A stretch of 64,000 nucleotides of DNA. It comes from Thermonema rossianum DSM 10300 (GTDB lineage Bacteria > Bacteroidota > Bacteroidia > Cytophagales > Thermonemataceae). Numbering within the stretch: the stretch's first letter is position 1; every line of letters begins with the position of its first letter. The position numbers were made by a program, and so were the translations under genes. The DNA lies in the NCBI RefSeq assembly GCF_000426825.1, contig NZ_AUGC01000006.1, positions 1 to 64,000 on the forward strand. Direction: 5' to 3'. The notes below the pieces were generated by a model, which worked only from the letters and a program-made list of their open reading frames with translations, was not told the DNA's origin and ran no database searches. Of the stretch, positions 1 through 10,021 are shown piece by piece.

Positions 1-95
1 GTAGCATTATCTGTCCAGTTGCCATACACCTCTAAGGTAAAGGTGTTTAAGCTGAAAGTGCCGCTATATCCGGAAATCGTCAAGTTTTTACAGGC
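1..95. repeat. 95-base segment identical to 7278-7372
   Basis: Bases 1-95 match bases 7278-7372 without a mismatch. Both copies lie at the same place in two paralogous giant genes, just after the signal peptide and first WNN(P/A)(G/A)NW motif. The flanking sequence on the right (96 onward against 7373 onward) diverges at once. The left end is cut by the window, so the repeat may be longer. Confidence 0.95.
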
Positions 96-341
96 TTCAT
101 TCTTAGTAAGATTGCAGTTTTTATTATTATTAAACACCACATCGTCATTGGCATCAGGGATACCATCTGCATCCGGTCCTACCTGAACCCAGTTGGCAGG
201 ATTATTCCACGCAGTACCGGCTGCACCTGTCCACGTAAAAGTAGCCTGTGCCCACCCACTTGTAACACAAGCCATTGTCAAAAACAGCGCCATGAGCCGG
301 CTTTGCCATAGTGTGTATCCGCTCTTTTGTACCCTATTCAT
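1..341 (-). CDS. N-terminal part of a giant secreted T9SS-type surface protein (runs off the window)
   Basis: The reading frame starts at an ATG at 341 and stays open to base 1, giving the first 113 residues. It begins with a signal peptide (MNRVQKSGYTLWQSRLMALF, then a hydrophobic run ending in GWAQA). The mature part opens with TFTWTGAAGTAWNNPANW, a 'WNNPANW' motif typical of large Bacteroidota surface proteins, followed by a DADGIPDANDD calcium-type loop. It is clearly paralogous to the start of the 2309-residue protein encoded at 656-7585. Residues encoded by bases 1-95 are identical between the two, at both protein and DNA level. The C-terminus is outside the window, so a T9SS sorting domain is expected but not seen. 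Both giants are transcribed leftward, with 314 bases between them. Role is inferred as adhesin or surface layer; the ligand is unknown. Confidence 0.8.
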   Translation of the reverse strand, partial: MNRVQKSGYTLWQSRLMALFLTMACVTSGWAQATFTWTGAAGTAWNNPANWVQVGPDADGIPDANDDVVFNNNKNCNLTKNEACKNLTISGYSGTFSLNTFTLEVYGNWTDNA

Positions 342-655: not shown

Positions 656-3600
656 CTATTCTATCACAAGACGACTATAATACATCTGTCCTTGTGCGTT
701 TTGCACACTAAGCAGGTACACCCCTGCCTGTGGCTTTTGAGCAAACTGCAAGCGAAGCGTTTGAGTGCCGTCCGTCAATTGTTTGAGCTGCACCAAACGT
801 CCGGTCATGTCGTACAAGCGCACGGTAGCCGCTTCCACACCACCGAAAGGCAAGACCACAAACACCTCATCACCGCTGTTGGGGTTCGGGTACACACTGA
901 GGCGTCCGTCCTGCTGCAGTTCGCCTTTCACCTCTACCGCCACTACTTTCGAGTAGCTCACCTTTCCGTCTTTTTCTTCTTGGCGCAAGCGGTAGTAGTT
1001 CACCCCTTGGTGCGGTGCCGGGTCTATGTGATAATAAGCAGCCACTGTTTCGCCTCCGTTGCGGGCTTCTATACGGGCAATTTCCACAAACTGTTGCCCG
1101 TCGGTGCTGCGCTCAATGCCGTAATACGCCAAACGGCTTTCATTGGCAACTACCCAATCAAGCTGTACTTGGCTTTGATTGACCACCTTCGCCTGCAAAC
1201 TCAATACCTCTACGGGCAACGGAATAAAGTACCAGCCATAAGTAAAGCGGCTGTTGCCCAGGGTGGTCAAAGGCTCGGTAGAGCTGATGGTTACGTTGTT
1301 GGACTGCAAGTCGCCAATACCGCCAATATCCCGCCAGAATTCACCTTTGGAGGCATAACCTCTGCGGATAGGAAGCTCTGTATTCACTACTACAGGTGTA
1401 GCCTGACGCGCATAAGGCAGATCATCATTGGAGTAATCTTGTAAGATACTCAGTTGAGTAACTAAGCTCAAGTCGGCCATCACATTGGGGTATTGCGTAT
1501 CCAATGGCGGTGGTGCTGCAATGGTATTCTGAGCAGCATCAAAGCGCAAGGTAACGATGGCTTCTGCCAAGTCGCCGGCCGCTACGGCGGGTGCCGGATC
1601 CAGAGGCAAGGCTGAAGGGAAGCCTATATTTTTGATTTTCCAATATCGTTGATTGGTTACCATATTGATATTAGACGCATAGGTTGCAATATCGTGATCA
1701 TTGCCATCGTCGCCACCCGGCTCATGAACACCGTCTTCATCTTCATCTTCCGGGTGCATGCCCTCCATAATTTGCATGGTAAAGGCAGTAGGGTTATTAT
1801 TGGTAAGGCGTACTTGCAGCGCATAGCCATCCGATCCTGCCGGGCTGTTGCCCCCGGTATATACGTAACCGGCACGCCCAATGGGGAAGTTCAGGCGAGT
1901 GGATAACACAGAGCTGCCTTGGAAGATACGCCCTACCGGACCATCTACAAAAGCAGTATTGGGACTTGCAGAAGCAGAGCGTACCCATGACCCCAACTGG
2001 CCGATAATAATCTCTCTGCCATTACCCGTACCATCATCTTCGAAAGTCTTGAAGATGCCTCGATTCAAAGTAAGCAGGTTGTTGACCACCACGCGGCTGT
2101 TTAAGGTAACCGTTCCTGCATCTGTCAGCTTCTCTATTCGCAAGTCATAGAAATTCTCATAAGCCTGCAATAATCCCGCAGCACTATTACGTGTGATAGT
2201 CTGAGCCCCGGCCCCATTGAAAACTACCTCACCGGTGCGTGGCACAAACAAACCATTGTCATTGATCCAGTCACCACCTACATAAATTTTAATTCCATCA
2301 ACATCAGAAGCATCATACACAGGCGTGACTGCCCCGGTTTTATGAATATAAAAGTCGTTATCGACAAAGAGATTGTCATTATTTTCGCTGTAGCCGCCTT
2401 GGAATTCAACATCCCAGAAGTGGCTAAAGGTAGGACCGGTGGTAATGGTTCTTGAACCTACATTTTGATTGAACACCACCCGGGCACGATCTGTGCCATC
2501 ATCCTCCAAGTCGTAGTCGAAGGTGCCTGCCACACTCCATCCTTTACCGATGGTGAAAGCTTGGAAACCATTGCCCGTGCGGATGGTCACGCCCTGGCTT
2601 GCCGTGAGGTCGCCACCATATTCCGTACCACCGGGACAAGGCGACGAACGCTGGATGATGGTTTCTACTTGCCCTCCTCCACTATGTAAAATGTCTAAAT
2701 TGATGGGATTGCCCCCTCCGGTGTCTATAATCAAGTCCCGGCAGGCAATTTCGGGCACTCCATTACCGGTAGCAGTAAAACCTCCCACAGTGGGCGTGTA
2801 GTTATCCGGCAAGAAAGCACCATCTGCTGTAATATTGATAGGCCCCGCTACATAACGGTGATCTATCACTATGGCGTCCTCAATGGTAGGTAGCGCATCG
2901 TCTGTCCAGTTGGCCGGGTCATGCCAGCTGGTGCCGTCGCCGTCGCCATCCCAGTATTTAATCTTACCGGACCACACGATGATAGAGTCTGCCGAACCGA
3001 TCCATGAGCCTGCTGTTTCTCTATCGAACGACTCCCCAGCAAACACACCGGTAGCATTAATAAAGCGCGTTTTCTGATAGCGGATGTCAGAAGTATCGCC
3101 CGGCAAGGCGCCTACCGGCGGGTCGTCAGTAGCAACTACATTGGTATACGTATTAGAACCATTGGCCCCATCACGACGCACGTTGGAGGTGCCCGGTGAA
3201 GTAAGTGCCAGCGGGAAGTTTACATTAAAGACATCTTGTGATTCATAATTGGAAGGCAACCACAAGTAGGTAGCATCATTTACGTCTTTTCCATTGGCGA
3301 AGGTACCATCGCTGAAAGTACCTACTGCCATTACAGGGCAACCGCCGCCAAAAAGCGTAATACCCGGGCTTTCCGGGGTGCCATTACGCATATCTACCCC
3401 GTTTTCATCAGTAAACTGAATATTATAGAAACGAACGGCAGCCCGTCCATTGATATCGAAACGGTAATAGTCATTGCCCATGCGCGAGATGCGTACATAC
3501 TGGTCTTGCGTACCGATGGCTTCCAATGTACCGTTAATAATCAAACTTTTACTTCCTTCAGCCGTGATTTTAGTAATATCGGTTTGCATGAGCAGCTCGG

Positions 3601-6600
3601 CACCGGGGTTCAGGTCTATTTTTCCTCCGGCCTGCACAGTAAGCCCCGTAAGTTGCAATGAAACAGATGTCCCTATAGGCACCGTTGCGGTCTGCACTAC
3701 GTAGTTGTTCCCGATGGTGGTTTGTGCCAAGGCACGCATGCCATCCTCTATGGTGTAGGTACTGGTGCCTCCACCGGCGTTATCGAAGAATACGCGATAG
3801 AATACCTGCCCCCGGGTGCGAATGGTGTAGTTGCCCGGGGTAGTAGGCCGGAAGCGCACGGCTGCTGCTGCATTCAATATTGTTTCATCGACATAGCCAC
3901 CGTTATTCAGCCAGCTGCCACCTACACGCACTTCTCCGTTATCGAAGATGAAGGTACCACCATTCAGGATAAAGTCGTCGCGTGTCGTGAGATCTGAGTT
4001 GGTAGAAAGACGGCAGGTAGCCGTTCCGTTGGGTTGTTCCATACGAAACTTAAAGCAATCGAGGTTGGCGCCTCCACCTTGAAGAATAACCCCACCGGAA
4101 GGCTTATCAATTACAAAGTCTTCCCAGTCATCGTTATTATTATATTTCACTTCTTGCTCACCGGGGCCATTCAGCGTAAAGGTCACTACATTGGCAGCAT
4201 TCCCAAAGTCATTGGTTCCGGAACCATCTACCATATAGTTCTGTCCTACAAATATTTGTACATTTCCGTAAGCTTCCAGTTCAGAAGGCAAGCCACCGCT
4301 GCCCCATCTTTTTTCTATGATAATGGACTTCTTCACCGAAAAGATGATATCTCCCTGCAAAGTAAGCTGTGTATTCGGGGCATCTTGTACCTGAGGAGAC
4401 AGATCTTGCGGTTCTTGCCCCCCGGACCCCATATTCTGTCCGTTAATGACCAGATTTCCTTCTATTTCTATGTTGCCCACGCCGTTCACGCCCACGATGG
4501 TAGAGGGAATGACTGCATCCATTGGTGCTGTATGCGACAAATACACATTGAAGCGCTCGAAGATGTCGTCCGGAATACGAGCATCCGTTACAATGTTCAC
4601 ATTATCTGCCACATCACCATCTCCGTCCGTATCGAAGTGCTCTATGTAGTTACCGTCTCCGTCCGTATCGATGGCAGCCAATTCATCTTGTCGCAACCCT
4701 ATCAAAATATAATCTTCAAAATCAATAGTCCGCAGCTCCGGTGCCGAAAAAGCACTCTTGGGCATACCGGGGTAGATGCGCAAAGGATTGTAGAATTCAT
4801 TATTGACAAACGACCAGTTGCGGTAATCTGCCCAGTTGGTAGGATCGAATGGAGCAGAGTTATCACAACCTTGGTCGTCTCCTTTGTTGTAATTATTTTT
4901 TCCCCCTTTCCTATCCGGGTCAGCTCTGTATGGGCTGGGGGCGCAAGGATTATAAGGCGATGAAGAATCTACCATCCCTCCTACCCAATAGATAGGTGCA
5001 AACTCAGACCAAATGATGCGGTCATCATTGGGGTCGCTGTCATCGTTATCACCGCCATCCCAGCCTTCGCCGTTGGAGCCGCCAATCGTGCCCGAAGAGG
5101 CTACCATAGTAATAACCCCACAGACGTCATTGGCAACAGCCGGCGAGCCGCAGCTAACCCCCGAATAACCAAAGGCAGCTGCAGAAGCCGCTGTGCTGGC
5201 TACAAGATTATTGTCATTTGTATTATTCTTAGAACCGGTAAAGCGCGCTCCTTTGATGGTCATGGTTTGACCGGTATTGATGGTCAGTGCCGTATTTCCG
5301 GTGGCCCCTTGAGCAAAAGAGCAGTAGCTGAAATTGTAAAAGATTGGCTCAGCATTGACCAGCTGATACCGGGGCCCGGTTTCTGTAGTATCGTTATCAT
5401 TGTCAAAATCATACTCATCAATGAAGCCGATGATAGGCGGTGCCAAAACCGAACCGTAATGCATCTTGAAGCCACCATCGCTATTTGCACCTCCATCATG
5501 CAAAAAGCCGCTGTCAGCTGCCCCCTGATAGTTGAAGTTGGTAAAGGCTGCTTCGACCTGCCCCCCGGGCCATGCTTCCATACGATAATACTGACCGGGT
5601 GTACCGTCCCTGTCTACCTGCACACGCTTGGTGGGTGTTCCCAAGAAAGAAACTCTGCCTCCGTTGCCTATTTGAAGGAAAGCCCCCCGGGAAGTCTTTC
5701 CGGTGCACATGCTTAAACGTGAACCGGCCTCGAACTCAAGTCGCCCATATACGCGCAAGACGTCATTTTCACGATTACCAAAGAGCATAGTCGCTTCGGG
5801 CAAGCGGAAGGTGCCTGTCAAGACATACATGTTGCCTTGCACCCGTACCCCTTTACTGGTAGGGATTGCTACAAATTGGCTATTTGCATCTTTATAAACA
5901 TACACATTGGGCAGATAAATCCCGGCAAGCCCGGCAATGGGTGAGTTGTTGATATTTTTTAACCCCTGAGTATTGCCGTTGAGTGTTTGATTCAAATTAC
6001 CAACAAGGACTAACGTTGGCAACCTGTTGTTATCACCTTGTGAGCTTCCGCTATATACATCGGAAGGGCCGACATAAAAACCTGCTGTTGCAGAAGGGTA
6101 AGCTGTATTGTTGTCAACCAGATTGCCGCGTAAAAACAAAGTGATGGTGTTGGCACCAGCTGGCTCATTGCTATACAAATCAACAAACCCGTTGTTTTCA
6201 ATCACCAGATCTTTTACATCAATATCTGCTGCGGGTATGTCATAAGTTCTGTCTGTGTCTATCCCCCCCGCCGGATCGAATCCCGGTTTATTTACAGTAG
6301 TATAAATGGCATCGGTCACGTTGGTAACTATCAGGCCACAGCCGGGTAGCACGTTCAACAAACGGTCAATAACTAAGGGGTTATCACGAAGGGTAACTGT
6401 ATTGCCCGAGCTCTTTTGAATAATCACCTCATCAAAACGCGTAGAAGTCGACGGGCGAATTTCTACATTGCCACCTTCAATAAACTGAACGGAAGAGTTG
6501 ATATTGGTCAGCAGAGGATTGGCGGCCGTACAACCGAGGCTATTCCACGAGCCGGACAGGCGGATGATAGAGCTTCCGTTGAAGGCGTCAATAAAACCGG

Positions 6601-7585
6601 CACCGGGCAGGACGATATCGCCCCGCACCACCAACGGCTGTCCTGTTTCGATACGCAAAGAGCCATCTTGAACAAACAAACTCTTAGGACTTGCGCTTGT
6701 ACCTATCTCGATAGCCGGCGAAGTAATGCCGGCTCCCAAGATCACTCGTGCTCCCCCTGATTTATTGACATTCACAGCCGAACGGATAGCGACAGCGCTT
6801 CCGGAAATGATGGAGTTGGCCGTTCCGGTGAATTGCACGGGGGCAAAACCGGCTACTGCCGCCTGGTTCCCCACTATGAAACCTCCGGTTTGCATATAAT
6901 CCCCCTGCATTCTTAATTGGGCACTTCCTGCCAGTGTAAAATCGCCACTTTCAACGGTAGTGGTACCTTGCACCTCGATATATCGAGTGGAAGGAGCTGA
7001 AAAAGCCGAAGAGCCTGTACGCACCCGCAGATTGGCCACCGGTAAAGCACCGGCTCCCTGGGCAATGAGTGTACCGCTCTCCATAATCAACTCATTGCTT
7101 ACCATGCGGATCCCCCCAAAGGCACTGCCTATGATTTCCATGCTGCTACTGCCTTTGTCGAAAACCAGCGTATAAAAATAATCCGCATAAGGCAAGAAGA
7201 TGTCCATCGTATAAGGACCGGCCCCTCCATCCCTCAAAATCACCGTGCCGGTACCTGCCTGGAATCGACTACTACCGGTAGCATTATCTGTCCAGTTGCC
7301 ATACACCTCTAAGGTAAAGGTGTTTAAGCTGAAAGTGCCGCTATATCCGGAAATCGTCAAGTTTTTACAGGCAGCATCGGCAGTAAGCACACAGTTATTG
7401 GCAGGGCTTCCGGCAAAAACTACATTGTCATCTTTGTCCGGAATACCGTCTCCGTCTGCATCATTGCCGGCAGTGAGAGTCCAGTTTCCTGCATTATTCC
7501 ATGCGGTACCGGCGCTTCCCGTCCACGTAAAGTCGGCTTGTGCCCAAGCTTGGCTTCCCCAAAGCAAGCCAAGAGCAAGAACCAA
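656..7585 (-). CDS. Giant secreted surface protein with T9SS type A sorting domain (2309 aa)
   Basis: About 2300 residues, rich in G, N, T, D and V, in short beta-strand-like repeats that resemble right-handed beta-helix adhesins. The hydrophobic start ends in SQAWAQA, a signal peptidase site. WNNAGNW-type motifs recur (DPTNW, DPANW further on), and acidic DxDGDG loops (DADGDGIPDKDD; DTDGDGNYIEHFDTDGDGD) suggest calcium binding. A fibronectin-III-like stretch (VEVLSLQAKVVNQSQVQLDW) precedes a C-terminal domain of about 80 residues beginning LSVYPNPNSGDEVFVV and ending YYSRLVIE, the usual form of a T9SS type A sorting signal. It is therefore probably exported by T9SS and fixed on the cell surface. 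The readable frame begins at a TTG (7585) immediately after an in-frame stop. A better start, ATG at 7608 with a normal signal-peptide start, is one base out of frame, so a frameshift is likely here. Ligand unknown. Confidence 0.85.
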   Translation of the reverse strand: MVLALGLLWGSQAWAQADFTWTGSAGTAWNNAGNWTLTAGNDADGDGIPDKDDNVVFAGSPANNCVLTADAACKNLTISGYSGTFSLNTFTLEVYGNWTDNATGSSRFQAGTGTVILRDGGAGPYTMDIFLPYADYFYTLVFDKGSSSMEIIGSAFGGIRMVSNELIMESGTLIAQGAGALPVANLRVRTGSSAFSAPSTRYIEVQGTTTVESGDFTLAGSAQLRMQGDYMQTGGFIVGNQAAVAGFAPVQFTGTANSIISGSAVAIRSAVNVNKSGGARVILGAGITSPAIEIGTSASPKSLFVQDGSLRIETGQPLVVRGDIVLPGAGFIDAFNGSSIIRLSGSWNSLGCTAANPLLTNINSSVQFIEGGNVEIRPSTSTRFDEVIIQKSSGNTVTLRDNPLVIDRLLNVLPGCGLIVTNVTDAIYTTVNKPGFDPAGGIDTDRTYDIPAADIDVKDLVIENNGFVDLYSNEPAGANTITLFLRGNLVDNNTAYPSATAGFYVGPSDVYSGSSQGDNNRLPTLVLVGNLNQTLNGNTQGLKNINNSPIAGLAGIYLPNVYVYKDANSQFVAIPTSKGVRVQGNMYVLTGTFRLPEATMLFGNRENDVLRVYGRLEFEAGSRLSMCTGKTSRGAFLQIGNGGRVSFLGTPTKRVQVDRDGTPGQYYRMEAWPGGQVEAAFTNFNYQGAADSGFLHDGGANSDGGFKMHYGSVLAPPIIGFIDEYDFDNDNDTTETGPRYQLVNAEPIFYNFSYCSFAQGATGNTALTINTGQTMTIKGARFTGSKNNTNDNNLVASTAASAAAFGYSGVSCGSPAVANDVCGVITMVASSGTIGGSNGEGWDGGDNDDSDPNDDRIIWSEFAPIYWVGGMVDSSSPYNPCAPSPYRADPDRKGGKNNYNKGDDQGCDNSAPFDPTNWADYRNWSFVNNEFYNPLRIYPGMPKSAFSAPELRTIDFEDYILIGLRQDELAAIDTDGDGNYIEHFDTDGDGDVADNVNIVTDARIPDDIFERFNVYLSHTAPMDAVIPSTIVGVNGVGNIEIEGNLVINGQNMGSGGQEPQDLSPQVQDAPNTQLTLQGDIIFSVKKSIIIEKRWGSGGLPSELEAYGNVQIFVGQNYMVDGSGTNDFGNAANVVTFTLNGPGEQEVKYNNNDDWEDFVIDKPSGGVILQGGGANLDCFKFRMEQPNGTATCRLSTNSDLTTRDDFILNGGTFIFDNGEVRVGGSWLNNGGYVDETILNAAAAVRFRPTTPGNYTIRTRGQVFYRVFFDNAGGGTSTYTIEDGMRALAQTTIGNNYVVQTATVPIGTSVSLQLTGLTVQAGGKIDLNPGAELLMQTDITKITAEGSKSLIINGTLEAIGTQDQYVRISRMGNDYYRFDINGRAAVRFYNIQFTDENGVDMRNGTPESPGITLFGGGCPVMAVGTFSDGTFANGKDVNDATYLWLPSNYESQDVFNVNFPLALTSPGTSNVRRDGANGSNTYTNVVATDDPPVGALPGDTSDIRYQKTRFINATGVFAGESFDRETAGSWIGSADSIIVWSGKIKYWDGDGDGTSWHDPANWTDDALPTIEDAIVIDHRYVAGPINITADGAFLPDNYTPTVGGFTATGNGVPEIACRDLIIDTGGGNPINLDILHSGGGQVETIIQRSSPCPGGTEYGGDLTASQGVTIRTGNGFQAFTIGKGWSVAGTFDYDLEDDGTDRARVVFNQNVGSRTITTGPTFSHFWDVEFQGGYSENNDNLFVDNDFYIHKTGAVTPVYDASDVDGIKIYVGGDWINDNGLFVPRTGEVVFNGAGAQTITRNSAAGLLQAYENFYDLRIEKLTDAGTVTLNSRVVVNNLLTLNRGIFKTFEDDGTGNGREIIIGQLGSWVRSASASPNTAFVDGPVGRIFQGSSVLSTRLNFPIGRAGYVYTGGNSPAGSDGYALQVRLTNNNPTAFTMQIMEGMHPEDEDEDGVHEPGGDDGNDHDIATYASNINMVTNQRYWKIKNIGFPSALPLDPAPAVAAGDLAEAIVTLRFDAAQNTIAAPPPLDTQYPNVMADLSLVTQLSILQDYSNDDLPYARQATPVVVNTELPIRRGYASKGEFWRDIGGIGDLQSNNVTISSTEPLTTLGNSRFTYGWYFIPLPVEVLSLQAKVVNQSQVQLDWVVANESRLAYYGIERSTDGQQFVEIARIEARNGGETVAAYYHIDPAPHQGVNYYRLRQEEKDGKVSYSKVVAVEVKGELQQDGRLSVYPNPNSGDEVFVVLPFGGVEAATVRLYDMTGRLVQLKQLTDGTQTLRLQFAQKPQAGVYLLSVQNAQGQMYYSRLVIE
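7278..7372. repeat. Second copy of the 95-base identical segment
   Basis: Identical to bases 1-95. It encodes ACKNLTISGYSGTFSLNTFT and the following NWTDNAT region in both paralogues. Sequence outside this block is clearly diverged at DNA level, for example 121-180 against 7398-7457. Confidence 0.95.
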
Positions 7586-7718
7586 CTCAGTTTATTTCTT
7601 TGCCTCATAATACTTTATTTTATGGTTTATTCATTAATCGTTTTAAGCAGGACTTAGTAAACGACCATGCAAGTTTTTTACTGAAAAAGCGCAAGGCATA
7701 GGCGCACCTCGCAAAGCC

Positions 7719-7786: not shown

Positions 7787-10021
7787 ATGGTTGAGGAAGT
7801 GATACGTTTATCAGAGAAGCTGGGGCTTCGGGTCAAGCAAATCGAAGCTACCGTTCAATTGCTGGATGAGGGAGCCACCATTCCCTTTATTGCACGTTAC
7901 CGCAAAGAAGCCACCGGCGGCTTGGATGAAGTGCAAATCGCCCAAATACGGGACGAGGTAGAACGCCTGCGTGAGCTGGAAAAGCGCAGAGAAACGATTC
8001 TCAAAAGCATAGAAGAGCAAGGCAAACTCACCGACGAGCTAAAAGCAGCCATTTTAGCTGCCGACACCATGAGCGTGCTGGAGGACCTGTATCTGCCCTA
8101 TCGTCCCAAAAGACGCACCAAAGCGACCATGGCAAAGGAGAAAGGGCTGGAACCACTGGCCCGGCAGCTGTTTGAACAAGCCGAAAACCTGATTCCGGAA
8201 ACAGCCGCACAAGCCTTTATAGATGCCGAAAAAGGCGTAAATACCACAGAAGAAGCGCTCGAAGGCGCACGCCATATCATTGCCGAATGGATCAACGAAA
8301 CGCAGGAAGTGCGTGCAAGATTACGCGACTTATTCGAAGAAACCGCCCTCATCAAAAGTAAAGTCATCAAAGGCAAAGAGGAAGAAGGGCAAAAATTCCG
8401 CGATTACTTTGAATGGGAAGAGCCGCTTAAGAGCATTCCCTCGCACCGGCTGCTGGCCATCCGGCGCGGTGAAAGTGAAATGGTGCTTTCGGTCAGTATA
8501 GAACCGGACGAAGAAACAGCCATTGCACAAATAGAGCGGCTGGTATTGCAAAACCAAAGCCCCGCCGCCGAGCAGGTACGTTTGGCCATTGCCGATGCTT
8601 ATAAACGCCTGCTGCGCCCCTCGCTTGAAACCGAAATGCGTTTGGCATCGAAACAGCGAGCCGACGAAGAAGCCATCAAAGTGTTTGCCGACAACCTGCG
8701 CGAATTGCTTTTGGCTTCTCCCTTTGGCGAAAAGCGCGTATTGGCTATAGACCCGGGCTTTCGCACCGGCTGCAAAGTGGTTGTTCTTGACGAACACGGG
8801 CAGCTTCTTCATGATGATGTCATTTACCCTAACGAGCCTCAGAACCAAAAAGAGGCAGCCGGGCAACTGCTTCGCCGGCTTTGCGAACAATATAAAGTAG
8901 AAGCCATTGCCATAGGCAATGGCACGGCCAGCCGTGAAACCGAGCAGTTTGTGCGCCAGCTGCAAATTCCGGGCGTGTTGGTAGTGATGGTCAACGAAAG
9001 TGGCGCTTCGGTTTACTCTGCCTCGAAGGTAGCCCGCGAGGAGTTCCCCGACAAAGACGTCACCGTCCGGGGAGCCGTATCGATTGGGCGCCGCTTGCAA
9101 GACCCCCTGGCCGAGCTGGTCAAAATAGACCCCAAGTCTATAGGCGTGGGGCAATATCAGCACGACGTGGACCAAAAAGCACTCAAAAAGAGTCTCGATG
9201 ACGTGGTCATCAGCTGTGTGAATGCGGTGGGGGTAGAGCTAAATACTGCCAGCAAGCAATTGCTTTCTTATGTATCGGGGCTGAGCGAGCGCCTGGCAGA
9301 CAACATTATTGCCTACCGCACAGCAAACGGCGGCTTTCGTAACCGGGAAGAGCTCAAGCGGGTTCCCGGTATTGGTCCCAAAACCTTTGAACTGGCAGCT
9401 GGCTTCTTGCGCATACGCAATGGGGAGCACCCATTGGATGCCAGTGCCGTTCACCCTGAATCATACCACATTGTAGAGCAAATGGCAAAAGACTTGGGGT
9501 GCAGCATAGAAGACCTGCTGCGTGATGCCAAACTGCGCGCGCAAATTCAAATCGAGCGGTATGTAAGCGATAAAATCGGCTTACCCACCCTGCAGGACAT
9601 CATGAATGAGCTGGCCAAGCCGGGGCGCGATCCACGCCAGGAATTTGAGGTGTTTCAGTTCGACGAGCGCGTGCACAGCATAGAAGACCTGCGGCCGGGC
9701 ATGCGCCTGCCGGGTATTGTCACCAATGTCACCAAGTTTGGTGCTTTTGTGGATATAGGGGTTCACCAAGACGGGCTGGTGCATATAAGCGAGCTGTCGC
9801 ATGAATATGTAAGCGACCCTGCGCAGGTGGTAAAAGTACATCAAAAAGTGATGGTCACGGTTTTAGAAGTGGACATTCAGCGCCGGCGCATTGCCTTGTC
9901 TATGAAGGGCGATGCCCCTGCCTCAAAGAAAAAAGCCAAGAGCAAAACCAAGGCACACGCCAAGCAAGAAGAAGACATGGCAGCCAAGCTGGCTGCCCTG
10001 CGGGCTAAGTTTGGACAATGA
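7787..10021 (+). CDS. tex: Tex-family RNA-binding transcription accessory protein
   Basis: 744 residues, the usual length for Tex. The N-terminal helical region (EKLGLRVKQIEATVQLLDEG, IPFIARYRKEATGGLDEVQI) is the Tex N domain. A YqgF/RuvC-like nuclease fold follows near residue 317 (VLAIDPGFRTGCKVVVLDEH), then helix-hairpin-helix motifs near 495-540 (RVPGIGPKTFELAAGFLRI), and an S1 RNA-binding domain near 634-705 (GIVTNVTKFGAFVDIGVHQD). The last 35 residues are lysine-rich. Tex proteins bind nucleic acid in the cytoplasm and influence transcription; the exact role in Bacteroidota is not settled. It is preceded by a promoter-like element and followed after 54 bases by pdhA, which may be co-transcribed. 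Start chosen at the only suitable ATG. Confidence 0.95.
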   Translation: MVEEVIRLSEKLGLRVKQIEATVQLLDEGATIPFIARYRKEATGGLDEVQIAQIRDEVERLRELEKRRETILKSIEEQGKLTDELKAAILAADTMSVLEDLYLPYRPKRRTKATMAKEKGLEPLARQLFEQAENLIPETAAQAFIDAEKGVNTTEEALEGARHIIAEWINETQEVRARLRDLFEETALIKSKVIKGKEEEGQKFRDYFEWEEPLKSIPSHRLLAIRRGESEMVLSVSIEPDEETAIAQIERLVLQNQSPAAEQVRLAIADAYKRLLRPSLETEMRLASKQRADEEAIKVFADNLRELLLASPFGEKRVLAIDPGFRTGCKVVVLDEHGQLLHDDVIYPNEPQNQKEAAGQLLRRLCEQYKVEAIAIGNGTASRETEQFVRQLQIPGVLVVMVNESGASVYSASKVAREEFPDKDVTVRGAVSIGRRLQDPLAELVKIDPKSIGVGQYQHDVDQKALKKSLDDVVISCVNAVGVELNTASKQLLSYVSGLSERLADNIIAYRTANGGFRNREELKRVPGIGPKTFELAAGFLRIRNGEHPLDASAVHPESYHIVEQMAKDLGCSIEDLLRDAKLRAQIQIERYVSDKIGLPTLQDIMNELAKPGRDPRQEFEVFQFDERVHSIEDLRPGMRLPGIVTNVTKFGAFVDIGVHQDGLVHISELSHEYVSDPAQVVKVHQKVMVTVLEVDIQRRRIALSMKGDAPASKKKAKSKTKAHAKQEEDMAAKLAALRAKFGQ

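Follow-up and report, generated by a model that had tools for sequence, protein, structure and literature searches.

Frame breaks in surface-protein genes have been described in several settings. Frameshifted and pseudogenised autotransporter genes are reported (PMC8111173 and PMC7168839) in which a large gene for a surface protein carries a small indel and the copies in relatives are intact. The opa genes of Neisseria are switched through repeats located in the leader (PMC3960869). Genes of another class encode type A cargo of the type IX secretion system, which carries a C-terminal sorting domain (TIGR04183 / PF18962). Export of type IX cargo requires a Sec signal peptide.

Here we describe an adhesin-like cargo gene from Thermonema rossianum, located in the first 64,000 nucleotides of contig C5 of the genome designated G000 (this stretch is referred to below as the window). 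Like other type A cargo, it has the sorting domain, and its orthologs have a Sec signal peptide; the window copy differs in lacking an in-frame ATG start and n-region. The likeness to the autotransporter cases lies in the small indel and the intact relatives; here, however, the break falls in the signal peptide and spares the mature frame, and the protein is type IX cargo instead. With opa, the gene shares the principle that shifting the frame inside the signal peptide would turn a surface protein off, but it has neither a repeat tract nor a sign of reversal, and the change is seen in one genome only. A literature search on signal-peptide frameshifts or phase variation in type IX cargo turned up no title or abstract opening that describes such a case.

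Start region of the adhesin gene and its intact relatives

The main open reading frame occupies positions 656..7585 of the minus strand and comprises 2309 codons without an internal stop. The only Pfam or NCBIfam match of its product (E up to 1) is a type IX sorting domain at residues 2231-2308 (662..895, minus strand), which scores 44.4 bits with TIGR04183 (cut-off 23; E-value 1.2e-11) and 34.9 bits with PF18962 (cut-off 27; E-value 1.8e-8), placing the protein among type A cargo; the genome contains 33 TIGR04183 matches. Given the sorting domain at its C-terminus, the protein should therefore need a Sec signal peptide. At the other end, the nearest upstream in-frame stop is a TAA (7592..7594, minus strand) two codons ahead of a TTG (7583..7585, minus strand). 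Because of this stop, the main frame has no start earlier than the TTG, from which the in-frame leader is only 15 residues long and uncharged. An ATG at 7608, surrounded by AT-rich sequence and preceded by A at both -3 and -6, opens a different frame, offset from the main one by one base. It reads MRQRNKLSWFLLLACFGEAK..., retains a basic n-region (MRQRNK) and ends at a stop at 7422-7420 after 62 codons (7420..7608, minus strand). The preliminary description had reported both the out-of-frame ATG and the TTG opening behind a stop, and our analysis confirms these observations.

For comparison we used a same-genus relative, represented by one genome (G001), and a same-family relative (G002). The G001 ortholog (2306 aa, 77% amino acid identity) is encoded in a single frame from an ATG and has the leader MKCNHRWRLLLLVCSFLWASEALA^QA; its ATG lies at nearly the same position as ATG 7608 and opens a basic n-region in the main frame. 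In the N-terminal alignment, the window protein read from the TTG misses the first nine residues of the ortholog, which hold this n-region, whereas its hydrophobic core and cleavage site align. The G002 ortholog, 44-49% identical in two pieces, is likewise encoded in one frame, with the leader MNKLSKLLFFTLLLLVAHGGWA^Q. Both orthologs adjoin the same divergent neighbour gene as the window adhesin (744 aa; 7787..10021, plus strand), which we take to be Tex-like. A tandem paralog has its 5' end at 1..341 on the minus strand (ATG at 341) and probably extends into contig C21; its signal peptide is intact, and so is that of its G001 counterpart. Since orthologs and paralogs are intact, the ancestral state was a single frame from an ATG and the window copy is derived. 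Relative to its orthologs the gene thus carries a frame-disrupting indel, and by this alignment a one-base frame break appears to have cost the signal peptide its charged beginning. That the signal peptide is broken by a one-base offset, as had been proposed, gains support from the two orthologs and the paralog with intact leaders.

We estimated how often such an arrangement arises by chance using 20,000 random upstream stretches matched to nearest-neighbour composition. In 28% of them, at least one ATG outside the main frame occurred at a distance of 15-45 nt ahead of the TTG; an ATG of this kind that stays open past the TTG and is followed by at least three K/R in residues 2-7, a criterion chosen after the case was seen, occurred in 0.9%. 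The positional match to the ATG of the same-genus ortholog is stronger evidence for a broken leader, outweighing the chance estimate. The ratio dN/dS between the window gene and its G001 ortholog is about 0.085, a rough value since synonymous sites are near saturation. It points to constraint for most of the time since the species split, and therefore to a break that is either recent or not real. With 2309 codons still open and this constraint between orthologs, the break would be young.

Loss-of-export mutation or sequence error

An ordinary frame break, by recent mutation or by sequence error and with no new mechanism, is the most likely explanation; a sequence error and a real frameshift that turns export off had both been offered in the preliminary description. 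Of the two, we slightly favour a real loss-of-export mutation. Our leading reading, held tentatively, is that the window gene is a real loss-of-export allele created by a recent one-base change. In its favour, the sorting domain implies export, and two orthologs in the same context are single-frame from an ATG. A very large surface protein of this kind would be exported first by Sec, through its signal peptide, and then by the type IX system, through its sorting domain. A change in the first codons would have left the ATG and the basic n-region in one frame, and the hydrophobic core with everything after it in another. Ribosomes initiating at the ATG would then produce a 62-residue dead-end peptide, little or no full-length protein would be exported, and the window copy would be an inactivated or strongly reduced allele next to a paralog with an intact signal peptide. 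We infer, under this reading, both that the organism itself carries the break and that translation and export are affected by it. If so, single type IX cargo genes can be switched off while a tandem paralog is still intact. In annotation, a gene finder would take the TTG and call the gene complete despite its damaged export signal.

There is a lesser but substantial chance that the organism has a continuous frame and that the deposited sequence or its assembly is off by one base. A lone indel in an otherwise intact 6.9-kb frame has the look that an error would have. In addition, the gene includes a 132-bp repeat (7241..7372, minus strand) identical to pieces of the N-terminal module of the paralog (C5:1-95 plus C21:13510-13604, with a 58-nt overlap), and the assembly broke at this repeat, contig C5 ending inside it. 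On the other hand, about 200 bp separate the frame break from the repeat, no homopolymer in 7540-7640 exceeds a length of 4, the order of flanking genes is as in the relatives, and the window contains no other split genes when compared to the relative, save three small flagged ORFs in antisense or intergenic positions. A second assembly of T. rossianum was found neither among 39 genomes nor among 8 family genomes (its own included in both), nor in a contig scan, which gave 5 loci, all distant; records of this genome or of very close ones may be missing from these searches.

The frequency of similar breaks was assessed in 158 reciprocal ortholog pairs of G000 and G001, drawn from contig C5 and from parts of C3. 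In no pair but the adhesin does the G000 frame open after the conserved start of the relative, and in 136 pairs both members have a common ATG start no further than 40 codons into the G000 frame. The remaining 22, judged by eye in a set that includes pieces other than clean genes, comprise the adhesin, a G001 lipoprotein, pairs with starts other than ATG, frames with long extensions upstream, a shadow ORF and a piece truncated by the end of a stretch, as well as two G001 partners that are very short and appear to be truncated glycosyltransferases. A scan of G001 ORFs for splits in G000 flagged 5 among the 167 (of 291) that had a match; four of these lay upstream of a start judged real and one was a true split. 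In the reverse direction, 3 rows (2 ORFs) were flagged among 169 of 303, and both ORFs lay upstream of the start. Under looser rules, 4 of 57 and 6 of 61 of the ORFs that had a relative were flagged, counts that these scans supersede.

The true split is an endonuclease-I-like type IX cargo gene lying in two frames with a one-base offset (L049 2292-4184; G000:C3 ~310,300-312,180), while its G001 ortholog (L093) has a single frame of 614 residues. Conversely, the G001 lipoprotein gene (minus strand, near 248,500-249,100 in G001:C1 240,001-260,000, L107) has its ATG in one frame and its leader and lipobox in another, and its G000 counterpart is single-frame. One further break in G000 and one in G001 are compatible with sporadic errors and with mutations alike, and the lipoprotein break counts against a real allele in the window insofar as mutation and error fit it alike. 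By these comparisons, single frame breaks are rare in both genomes and may be either mutations or errors. We also considered an excess of breaks in type IX cargo, as both G000 breaks fall in such genes and frames bearing the C-terminal domain make up 5 of the 158 pairs (7.7% of residues); the endonuclease-I-like gene is not among these five because its domain is in the split-off frame. This reading is not relied on, since one of the two breaks is the case that prompted the look.

TTG 7585 as a possible start codon

A third and rather unlikely explanation is that TTG 7585 is functional and provides a minimal signal peptide of 15 residues (MVLALGLLWGSQAWA^QA), with the protein exported, perhaps weakly. 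We compared this leader with those of 31 cargo loci of the same genome (the 33 TIGR04183 matches less the window's own and the C21 paralog), 22 of which were called by a script that accepts ATG starts only. The hydrophobicity of the core is within their range (best 8-residue mean 2.84 vs 1.99 to 3.69 in the 22 called leaders), and the leader ends in a good cleavage motif. Its length, however, is below that of all 22 (18-33 residues, median 22.5), and it is uncharged. K or R occurs within the first 12 residues of 19 of the 22 called leaders, the exceptions being L054, L062 and, with the start that the script chose for it, L071; L054 and L062 are intact cargo and offer a precedent for an uncharged leader, while the L071 call, examined by eye, skips an upstream ATG that would add K/R. 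The cleavage site of L066 also looks miscalled by eye. Among the 9 uncalled loci are leaders visible by eye, a Tat-like leader, the broken L049 and an 84-aa frame. A frame of 84 codons (L048 5974-6226; G000:C2 near 357,000) holds little beyond the type IX sorting domain, has no signal peptide and is possibly the remnant of a decayed cargo gene.

The sequence context of the TTG is mixed. Initiation in Flavobacterium johnsoniae benefits from adenines within the start codon and at positions -3, -6, -12 and -13, and it is tuned by structure (PMC6847099). Two of these favourable positions, -3 and -6, hold A ahead of ATG 7608. The TTG keeps the A at -6 and follows an A-rich stretch. In addition, a few of the 158 pairs suggest that the genus employs starts other than ATG; in one gene, for instance, TTG in G001 and GTG in G000 occupy a single column, and another gene has a TTG common to both. 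The G at -3 speaks against the TTG but is a weak point, because an A-3G change cost only about 10% in the E. coli reporter of the same study. Further objections are a competing ATG 23 nt upstream, the ATG starts with longer n-regions in both orthologs, and a predicted RNA hairpin (7530..7588, minus strand) whose lower stem holds the TTG. The hairpin has z-scores of -2.02 and -2.36 (10 and 2 of 200 shuffles fold equally well), and the TTG is in its stem in both the minimum-energy and the centroid folds; ATG 7608 is partly in a weak helix in the former and free in the latter. We consider the TTG possible as a weak start, while an efficient start beside a better ATG seems unlikely.

Phase variation and programmed frameshifting as improbable alternatives

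Two readings in which the broken frame would serve regulation are very improbable. In the first, an unstable site within the signal peptide toggles export, as in Neisseria opa, and the leader position is indeed the site of the opa switch (PMC3960869). Slipped-strand phase variation is recognised by a repeat tract at the switch; the sole array near the break consists of an 11-base unit present twice, homopolymers there reach the length of 4 given above, and the start of the same-genus ortholog has no visible repeat tract. According to the second, equally improbable, the break would be a lineage-specific throttle on export: most ribosomes would abort after initiating at ATG 7608, and a few would shift frame or use the hairpin-held TTG, resulting in a small or regulated release of the adhesin with the paralog as the steady copy.

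The least probable alternative, given as the third option in the preliminary description, is a programmed ribosomal frameshift that would carry translation from the ATG frame into the main frame. The predicted hairpin starts four bases past the main-frame stop and a shift there would yield a complete signal peptide, but the orthologs are single-frame, an X XXY YYZ heptamer is absent from the ATG frame over the region 7608-7519, and the same-genus ortholog folds no better than shuffles (z -0.17); a programmed shift is therefore unsupported. No hairpin of equal strength was found at the starts of the G001 ortholog and two paralogs (z -0.17, -0.50 and -0.16). Programmed -1 frameshifting is recognised by a slippery heptamer together with a stimulator conserved in orthologs; the locus lacks the heptamer, and its hairpin is unmatched in the same-genus ortholog.

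Several observations concern the tandem paralogs themselves. The end of contig C21 and the start of contig C5 (window position 1) overlap by 58 identical bases, and the paralog gene probably runs over this contig break. Comparison of the paralog stretches (window 7241-7372 and 1-95 with the end of L018; L016 2149-2585 and 9376-9797) revealed near-identical N-terminal segments within each genome, 132 bp being identical in G000 and 647 nt being 91.5% identical in G001. Between genomes, the orthologs are about 73% identical. The within-genome similarity may be a sign of gene conversion in each lineage.
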